Source of the DNA: Providencia huaxiensis
GTDB lineage: Bacteria > Pseudomonadota > Gammaproteobacteria > Enterobacterales > Enterobacteriaceae
Assembly (NCBI RefSeq): GCF_002843235.3
Contig: NZ_CP031123.2
Coordinates: 2,852,001-2,916,000, forward strand
Direction of reading: 5' to 3'
Length of the DNA stretch: 64,000 nucleotides
The translations under genes and the position numbers were made by a program. A model generated the notes under the pieces. It was given only the letters and a program-made list of their open reading frames with translations, had not been told where the DNA came from and did no database searches. Of this stretch, positions 50,077-52,501 are shown one piece after another. Position 1 is the first letter of the stretch, and the number at the start of each line of letters is the position of its first letter.

Positions 50077-50096
50077 CACTGTATAAATTCACACTA
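50077..50096 (+). promoter_or_regulatory. LexA-like box before polB
   Basis: CACTGTATAAATTCACACTA follows the form CTG-N10-CAC, one base from the LexA core CTG-N10-CAG. Its TGTATAAA left part equals the box I recall for E. coli polB. It lies about 55 bp before the polB start. The last-base mismatch would weaken binding, so SOS control is possible but unproven. Confidence 0.45.
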
Positions 50097-50149: not shown

Positions 50150-52501
50150 ATGACCCAACTTATCGCTCCAGCAGAAAGAGGCTTTATTCTTAGCCGCCAC
50201 TGGAAAGACACCCGCCACGGTGTTGAGGTCTCTTATTGGCTACTCACTGATAACCAACCTCAAAAGGTCACTGTTCCCTATCAAAAAGCGATTGGCTTTT
50301 TAGCTGAGTCTCAATTCCCTCAAGTAAAACATCTATTAGATGAACAACCCAGCATTACCTATCGGCTCCTTGAATTAATTGATTTTAAACGCGAAAAAGT
50401 CTATGCAATTTATTGCCACCAATATCGACAATTGCAAAATCTTGAAAAAAGTTGCAACGAATTGGGTGTCGAATTATTAGAAACCGATATTCGCCCAAGT
50501 GAACGCTATTTAATGGAACGCTTTATCGCGGCCTCTGTCTGGTTTTCTCGAAATCAGCAAGGGGAGTTTCAACTAAAGCCTTGCGAAGGCTACCGCCCTT
50601 TAGTCAAAGCCGTTTCCCTTGATATCGAAACCAGTCAACATGGTGAACTCTATTCGATAGGGTTGTCTGGCTGCGGTGACAACGTGGTATTTATGTTAGG
50701 GCCAGAACAAGGGCCGGCATTGAGCACTGAACATCGCTTAATTTATGTGAATAGCCGCCCGCAATTACTTCATAAACTCAATGAATGGCTTCACCAATAC
50801 GACCCTGATGCCATCATCGGTTGGAACCTAATCCAATTCGACCTACAAGTATTACAAAAACATGCAGAGCGTTATGGCATCCCCTTATTATTTGGCCGAC
50901 AAAGCAAAAAACTGGAATGGCGAGAGCATGGCTTTAAACAAGGGGTATTTTTTGCTGCCGCTGAAGGCCGGTTAATTATTGATGGTATCGATGCATTAAA
51001 AGCCGCGACATGGAGTTTTTCCTCATTTAGTTTAGAGTCTGTCGCCCAAGCGCTACTTGGTGAAGGTAAAGCGATTGATACCCCTTATGACCGAATGGAT
51101 GAGATCAACCGCCGCTTTGCTCACGATAAACCCGCTTTGGCACATTACAATATTCAAGACTGTATTTTAGTCCATCGGATCTTTGAAAAAACGGATTTAA
51201 TGGCGTTCTTGCAGGAACGTTCAACAGTAACCGGCCTTTCTGTCGATAAAATGGGCGGGTCTGTCGCGGCATTCTCACACCTTTATATTCCCCGTTTACA
51301 CCGCCTTGGATTTGTCGCTCCCAACTTTACGGAACATAAAATGCAACTGAACCCTGGGGGCTTTGTCATGGACTCCCAACCCGGGCTATATGACTCCGTA
51401 TTAGTTTTGGATTACAAAAGCCTATATCCTTCAATTATTAGAACTTTTCTCATCGACCCGGCGGGTATGATTGAAGGATTAGCGCATCCAGACCTTGAAT
51501 ATTCTATTCCCGGTTTTCGCCAAGCTTGGTTTTCTCGCACAACCCACTGTTTACCCGATATTGTCAGCCATATCTGGCAAGAACGGGATAAAGCCAAAAA
51601 AGAACATAATGCACCGCTATCCCAAGCGTTGAAAATTATTATGAACGCATTTGCTGGGGTACTTGGGGCTGAAGGTTGTCGTTTTTTTGACCCAAGGCTA
51701 ACTGCGTCAATCACCATGCGTGGCCATGAAATCATGCGTACAACCAAACGTTTGATTGAGTCACAGGGTTATCAGGTTATTTATGGGGACACCGACTCCA
51801 CGTTTGTGTGGTTACGTGATGCCCACAATGAAGAACAAGCGCAAAAAATTGGTTTTTCTTTACGTGATTACGTGAATAGCTGGTGGAAAAAACATTTAGC
51901 CGAAGAGTGGCAATTAGAGGGTGTTTTAGAGCTCGAATATGAAACCCATTACCGCCGATTTTTGATGCCAACGGTACGTGGTGCCGAAATGGGGAGTAAA
52001 AAGCGCTATGCAGGGCTGAGTAAAGACACCATGGTATTTAGAGGGTTGGAGACCATTCGCTCAGACTGGACACCTTTAGCACAAATATTCCAAAAAGAGC
52101 TCTATACCCGTATTTTTTATCGCCAACCTTACCGTGAATATATTCGTGAATATGTACAAAATATTCGTTCAGGCCAATATGATGACCGTTTAGTTTACCG
52201 TAAACGTCTGCGCCGAAAATTGACTGATTACCAAAAAAATGTTCCTCCCCACGTTCGAGCCGCTCGTGCCGCTGATGATTATAATTTAAAATTACAGCGC
52301 CCTTTGCAGTATCAAAATGGCGGTTGGATAAACTATATTATCACTCAAGCGGGGCCTGAACCGCTGGAAATCATCACAGCAAAACCGGATTACGAACATT
52401 ATATCGCTAAGCAAATCAAGCCAATAGCCGATGCCATCTTACCTTTCTTACAAGATGACTTTGATACCCTGCTAACTGGGCAAATCACCCTTTTGTTTTA
52501 A
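50150..52501 (+). CDS. polB: DNA polymerase II
   Basis: Pol II is the SOS-induced family B polymerase used in replication restart and bypass. The 783-aa length equals E. coli. The exonuclease motif [14 protein letters not shown] (ExoI), motif [15 protein letters not shown] and motif C YGDTDST are intact. Motif B reads [12 protein letters not shown] (495-506) where family B has K...N-x-x-Y-G: residue 502 is Ala (codon GCT at 51653-51655) in place of Tyr. All surrounding residues fit, so this is not a frameshift. It sits between thiQ and rapA; the ara genes found beside polB in E. coli are absent. Confidence 0.96.

Follow-up and report, generated by a model that had tools for sequence, protein, structure and literature searches.

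The stretch of DNA analyzed here (the window, 64 kb from Providencia huaxiensis) contains polB as an open reading frame with an ATG start (50150-52501, + strand), encoding a DNA polymerase II (Pol II) of 783 amino acids. The product scores 1344.5 bits against the NCBIfam equivalog NF004422 for DNA polymerase II (cut-off 1103) and 1061.4 bits against the Pol II model NF004421 (cut-off 570), and stays below the cut-off of a third Pol II model, NF004420 (1257.7 versus 1435 bits). With phmmer, it matches the E. coli Pol II structures 1q8i and 3k57 over residues 8-781 at about 1130 bits. These matches identify the protein as a bacterial family B DNA polymerase II of the E. coli PolB type.

Motif A, DYKSLYPS with Asp421 (51410-51433, +), and motif C, YGDTDS with Asp547 and Asp549 (51782-51799, +), are intact, and their catalytic carboxylates agree with membership in the E. 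coli PolB-type family. All three exonuclease motifs are present as well. Motif I, VSLDIETS (50612-50635, +), and motif II, which contains GWN (50819-50842, +), are intact, and motif III, YNIQDC (51146-51163, +), retains its acidic residue. GWN is the exonuclease motif of the PolII-like clade, as given in excerpts of PMC7544198. An earlier reading of the sequence alone (the sequence-only reading) had called the motifs other than motif B intact, and this stands, as the catalytic and exonuclease acidic residues are all retained.

E. coli Pol II is thus an orthologue over nearly the full length, with the same acidic residues in the exonuclease, motif A and motif C. The surroundings of the gene are partly shared. 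The gene 3′ of Providencia polB matches RapA, and E. coli polB likewise has rapA downstream and a LexA-type box upstream. On the 5′ side, the genes match ThiP and ThiQ, and the neighbors are thiP-thiQ in Providencia but araA-araD in E. coli.

A LexA-like (SOS) box, CACTGTATAAATTCACACTA, lies 73 bases upstream of the polB start codon (50077-50096, +). It is the best 20-mer on the + strand of the window with a score of 16.7, the next one scoring 12.4. The matrix was made from ten E. coli boxes including the E. coli polB site, so the match of that site is by construction. In ten named Providencia loci, the best 20-mer upstream of polB is a related site located 61-75 bases upstream, with scores of 11.5-18.2. 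Because sites near the consensus are not rare genome-wide (225 with at most two mismatches versus 165 for a reversed control), the presence of one LexA-like box proves little. Rather, the place and conservation of the candidate box suggest SOS control. The right half of the box ends with CAC or CAT in the window and the ten named loci, the consensus being CAG, and the Moellerella box is closer to the consensus than the Providencia ones.

According to PMC11253446, E. coli has three bypass polymerases; Pol II is among them and counts as a high-fidelity, exonuclease-proficient enzyme. The same Providencia genome also yields two matches to Y-family polymerases. Loss of the other bypass polymerases was considered as a cause of the Tyr loss described below, and was rejected on account of these two matches.

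Motif B is where the Providencia enzyme departs from this type. The motif B block, residues 495-506, aligns with RB69 K560-G571 and spans 51632-51667 (+); the sequence-only reading had placed it one codon late, at 51635-51670. Codon 502 is GCT (51653-51655, +), and the polB reading frame confirms the reported Ala in place of the motif B Tyr. That E. coli Pol II has Tyr here is borne out by 1q8i and 3k57, both of which show Tyr in the same column (Tyr500 in the chain numbering of 1q8i). The flanking residues had also been described as intact, which is correct for the motif B block itself but not for a partner site, residue 401, which is altered.

Whether Ala is fixed could be examined in other genomes. 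All 24 Providencia genomes searched have Ala502, while Morganella has Cys instead. The 53 closest listed proteins, 84-98% identical, all have Ala502, and those with names are from Providencia except for one labeled E. coli. Across Providencia, the codon is GCT, GCA or GCG. The earlier judgment that a read error is unlikely can be made firmer: a sequencing error or an isolate mutation, for which we found no supporting point, has a negligible chance given Ala in 24/24 genomes and 53/53 closest proteins, and was rejected on the genus-wide Ala encoded by three different codons.

As the sequence-only reading had counted, two base changes separate Ala from any Tyr codon. The Providencia lineage therefore probably passed through an intermediate residue at 502.

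The protein labeled Escherichia coli (P0020) has Ala and is 98% identical to P. huaxiensis Pol II; the record is probably mislabeled or contaminated. Asn401 and Ala502 occur together in the 23 Providencia genomes with uninterrupted polB. In the remaining one of 24 (G019), polB is broken by stops and split over frames (G019:C3:22599-24950; L025-L028), yet still carries Asn401 and Ala502. Its interruption may reflect decay or an assembly error, the genome completeness being 94%.

We measured how rare the Tyr loss is by scanning genomes with motif B patterns. These patterns require M, N, G and V at the positions around the site, K ahead of it and, in most of them, also I; a Pol II altered at any of these positions would go unseen. 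In the family scan of 392 genomes from 154 genera, the pattern for a codon starting with A, C or G gave 39 matches spread over 38 genomes, and five of these 39 places are polB, all from Providencia. Thirty of the places were fetched as loci (three of them polB), two more (in G022 and G023) are inside polB, and the other seven (L172-L178) have no polB match. The TBN-codon pattern matched 5 of 391 family genomes, all from one genus, Morganella, all in polB and all with Cys. Three of these five proteins have exact matches among named Morganella proteins, and the other two cluster with them in the tree. Beyond Providencia, only Morganella thus showed a non-Tyr polB in the family scans of about 390 genomes.

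In the order scan, an open pattern matched 228 of 394 genomes, and among the matches listed the codon is TAT or TAC everywhere except in the window and at one non-polB place (G414, L171). In the class scan, two non-Tyr patterns matched 3/367 genomes (the window and two non-polB places, L167 and L168) and 0/367, respectively. The denominators 392, 391 and 367 are genomes searched, not counted polB carriers.

Protein and locus searches, outside the scan samples, added Xenorhabdus szentirmaii, whose Pol II also has Cys502. It is nested among Tyr-bearing Xenorhabdus; the nearest listed relative, Xenorhabdus sp. Sc-CR9 (P0075), is 88% identical and has Tyr. A description of Pol II missing the motif B Tyr was searched for in literature titles and abstract openings, and none was seen among the matches listed, with subscription journals mostly outside the scope.

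Among 392 distinct Pol II sequences, residue 502 is Tyr in 304, Ala in 74 and Cys in 14. Identical rows were counted once, and no protein was dropped for its length. Loci without an uninterrupted reading frame of more than 650 amino acids (L025-L028 of G019 and the chance hits L109-L135 and L162) and a phage locus (L165) were excluded.

When columns were compared one by one, residue 401 was the sole column perfectly linked to 502. Residue 401 is Ser in 304/304 Tyr502 enzymes, Asn in 74/74 Ala502 enzymes, and Ile (12) or Val (2) in 14/14 Cys502 enzymes. The 401/502 pairs are therefore Ser/Tyr (304), Asn/Ala (74), Ile/Cys (12) and Val/Cys (2) without exception, and no sequence has only one of the two residues changed. 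The runner-up, column 518, is off its usual residue in 88/88 non-Tyr enzymes but also in 36/304 Tyr enzymes. The link of 401 to 502 was already seen in a smaller comparison of 352 sequences.

In the window, the partner site is Asn401 (AAC, 51350-51352, +), the first residue of NPGG (51350-51361, +), which is SPGG in Tyr enzymes and stands opposite RB69 Y391-P-G-A. With Ala502 and Asn401, Providencia Pol II lies outside the Tyr-type active site, defined by motif B K-x3-N-x2-Y-G and Ser401; this type is a conserved trait that played no part in assigning the family. E. coli Pol II has Ser399 and Tyr500 (1q8i numbering) where the Providencia enzyme has Asn and Ala. Going by sequence, the Providencia enzyme belongs to a known polymerase type but has a variant active site, which is present throughout the Providencia genomes searched and comes with a linked partner site. 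The linkage of 401 is the new point beyond Ala502 itself.

Because many of the compared sequences are closely related, the weight rests on the number of separate changes. A tree of 116 sequences was made by a quick method with SH-aLRT support only. Parsimony assigns three losses of Tyr502 to this tree, one each at the stem of Providencia, the stem of Morganella and the tip of X. szentirmaii. Ser401 is replaced on exactly these branches, and one further change at 401, from Ile to Val, falls within Morganella. Three separate Tyr losses, each with a Ser401 replacement, are the parsimonious account. For Providencia and Morganella only, one early Tyr loss followed by Tyr regain in Proteus and Moellerella may be the alternative.

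Moellerella wisconsensis, the nearest Tyr relative seen of the Providencia enzymes, has both Tyr502 and Ser401, and so does Xenorhabdus sp. Sc-CR9, the nearest Tyr relative seen of the X. szentirmaii enzymes. Like Providencia, Morganella and X. szentirmaii have lost both the Tyr and Ser401, but they have Cys502 with Ile or Val401 on separate branches, whereas Providencia has Ala502 with Asn401.

The X. szentirmaii tip carries changes at 67 sites. Of these, just 401 and 502 count as slow, a class of 306 among the 783 sites, each with no more than 5 changes over the whole tree. The chance of three length-weighted changes falling on the three Tyr-losing branches is 3.2e-6, assuming equal site rates and ignoring that one column was picked out of 783. 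All three branches also have changes at five faster sites (779, 208, 398, 658 and 565), each of which changed 18-42 times.

Other sites vary without such linkage. Residue 519 (51704-51706, +) carries a Providencia-specific change; it is Ser in 263/264 Tyr enzymes, Ala in 72/74 Providencia enzymes, and Ser in Morganella and X. szentirmaii. Of the branches that lost Tyr, only the Providencia one shows a change at this slow site, and Ala519 was rejected as a third linked site because its change is confined to Providencia. Residue 226, in GWN of exonuclease motif II, is changed from Asn to Ser in 14/14 Cys502 enzymes. It was also rejected as a linked site, since Ser is found in 27/264 Tyr enzymes (Xenorhabdus, Rahnella and others).

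Exonuclease motif III also varies, residue 335 (51152-51154) being Ile in 74/74 Providencia enzymes and Leu in 232/264 Tyr enzymes. On the Morganella stem, six further slow sites changed (422, 487, 513, 521, 535 and 631). One of them replaces Tyr422 of motif A with Phe, which is also found in 18/264 Tyr enzymes. In Xenorhabdus, residue 511 just after motif B is His instead of Arg (CHFF versus CRFF) in 24/24 rows (P0056-P0079); the named rows are Xenorhabdus except for one metagenome-assembled genome called Enterobacteriaceae bacterium.

The active site could also have drifted under relaxed constraint if Pol II were becoming dispensable. The interrupted polB in one of 24 Providencia genomes would fit such a course, and the two Y-family matches in the same genome mean that Pol II need not be the sole bypass enzyme. 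On the other hand, the median dN/dS of polB within Providencia is 0.032 (range 0.016-0.053), from 27 usable of 253 pairs, where usable pairs have pS between 0.05 and 0.6. With the same method, the medians of eight other genera range from 0.027 (Yersinia) to 0.136 (Pseudomonas), with 3-21 pairs each.

Taken by themselves, the ten named Providencia loci give a single usable pair, in which dN/dS is 0.053 for polB versus 0.012 for rapA. This difference would favor relaxed constraint, but polB also outpaces rapA in each of the seven other genera with measurements for both genes. The key codons show synonymous turnover only, AAC/AAT at 401 and GCT/GCA/GCG at 502. Polymerase and exonuclease acidic residues are kept, and the identical partner site is altered in three lineages, neither of which suits drift. 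Providencia polB is under strong purifying selection and the gene is maintained, so relaxed constraint is a very improbable explanation.

To place the two residues in a polymerase active site, the protein was aligned to RB69 gp43. In agreement, hhalign (probability 99.8%) and MAFFT align residue 401 with RB69 Tyr391 and residue 502 with RB69 Tyr567, the equivalent already proposed by the sequence-only reading; Providencia Pol II thus has Ala at the Y567 position in both alignments. Thr548 of motif C aligns with RB69 T622.

Tyr391 and Tyr567 are side by side in the RB69 structure, and the short YxGG/A motif of phage enzymes coordinates synthesis and editing. By the title of one paper, which is cited elsewhere for exonuclease work, Tyr391 and Tyr619 reportedly take part in RB69 fidelity. 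When text on RB69 Tyr391 together with Tyr567, or on the YxGG motif, was sought, the literature search gave only a reference title.

The published RB69 data, taken from excerpts of the papers, concern Y567 more directly. Y567 makes a water-mediated minor-groove contact, and mutating it enlarges the pocket and permits misincorporation (PMC3564110). In the minor groove, ordered waters extend Y416, Y567 and T622 (PMC3799440). The Y567A mutant is less selective and better at extending mismatches (PMC3377560), which bears out the earlier claim that this mutation lowers base selection. Opposite guanidinohydantoin, Y567A inserts bases more than 100-fold better, with extension blocked (PMC3978516). 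In another report, the catalytic parameters of Y567A are unaffected and its structure is indistinguishable from that of the wild type (PMC3792054).

The laboratory mutant RB69 gp43 Y567A shares Ala at the same motif B position with Providencia Pol II. The former, however, is a phage replicase keeping Tyr391, while the latter is a bacterial Pol II with Asn there. Y567A is therefore an imperfect model, because it is a single mutant and every natural loss alters 401. With this difference in mind, the proposal that Ala502 may make a low-fidelity or bypass-suited Pol II is plausible, but the change at 401 could cancel the looser selection expected from Y567A, and the sequence fits a low-fidelity, a bypass-adapted or a compensated enzyme alike.

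From the alignment and the RB69 structures, we propose a mechanism in which 401 and 502 would both point to one place next to the minor groove, at the nascent pair or the primer end. As the Tyr ring leaves the fingers helix and residue 401 changes too, the Tyr hydroxyl and its water-mediated contact would be gone. Every replacement seen at 401 is larger than Ser, and the larger side chain (Asn, Ile or Val) would fill part of the freed space. As a likely outcome, distorted pairs would be rejected less strictly and synthesis would proceed more easily beyond mismatches or lesions, and the 3′-5′ exonuclease should still be able to edit. Overall, we lean slightly toward a working, probably SOS-controlled Pol II with a rebuilt minor-groove check of the nascent base pair.

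The main rival to a softened check is full compensation. Here the change at 401 would restore the lost role of Tyr, leaving fidelity ordinary after a near-neutral walk through a coupled state. The strict pairing, with 0 intermediates in 392 sequences, and the low dN/dS are what such a walk should leave. By side-chain volumes, Ile plus Cys is nearly equal to Ser plus Tyr, while Asn plus Ala falls short in volume and brings in a polar group. Compensation would then take different forms, with Asn401 forming a new hydrogen bond in the minor groove in Providencia and Ile or Val401 filling space in the Cys lineages. The volumes suit the Cys lineages, but Asn plus Ala fails to restore the bulk and Ile or Val cannot form hydrogen bonds. 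Moreover, Tyr is unchanged in 304/304 enzymes outside the three lineages, suggesting that its replacement is costly. Compensation seems to us to have a minor, though real, share of the probability.

Alternatively, the pair could shift the partition of the primer end between the polymerase and exonuclease sites rather than base selection. Residue 401 aligns with Y391 of RB69 Y-P-G-A, within the motif that coordinates synthesis and editing in phage enzymes, and the title linking Tyr391 and Tyr619 to fidelity, as a title only, points the same way. Near the pocket, RB69 L415A/G compromises the pol/exo partition (PMC3799440, in excerpt). The acidic exonuclease residues are retained in Providencia, however. 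We consider altered switching a distinctly unlikely explanation.

Weighing these readings, we find it most likely that the Providencia enzyme has a softened minor-groove check with editing retained, which would suit the extension of mismatches or lesions. A broader version, held more tentatively and at slightly less than an even chance, is that three enterobacterial lineages independently rebuilt the minor-groove sensor via the same 401 and 502 route, lowering base selection for mismatch or lesion extension.

In the RB69 model polymerase, the motif B Tyr has been called a fidelity sensor. Its natural replacement across a whole genus, with two further lineages showing the same loss and a change at 401 each time, offers a ready-made test of how the sensor acts. 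The same natural pairs also bear on whether the loss of Tyr can be compensated and whether a looser pocket is of advantage to a bypass polymerase. The X. szentirmaii and Sc-CR9 enzymes, with 94 differences and opposite states at 401 and 502, make a close natural pair for comparison. If the broader, three-lineage version is true, these lineage-wide Pol II enzymes would be nature's equivalent of the engineered RB69 Y567A, carrying a second-site change of their own.
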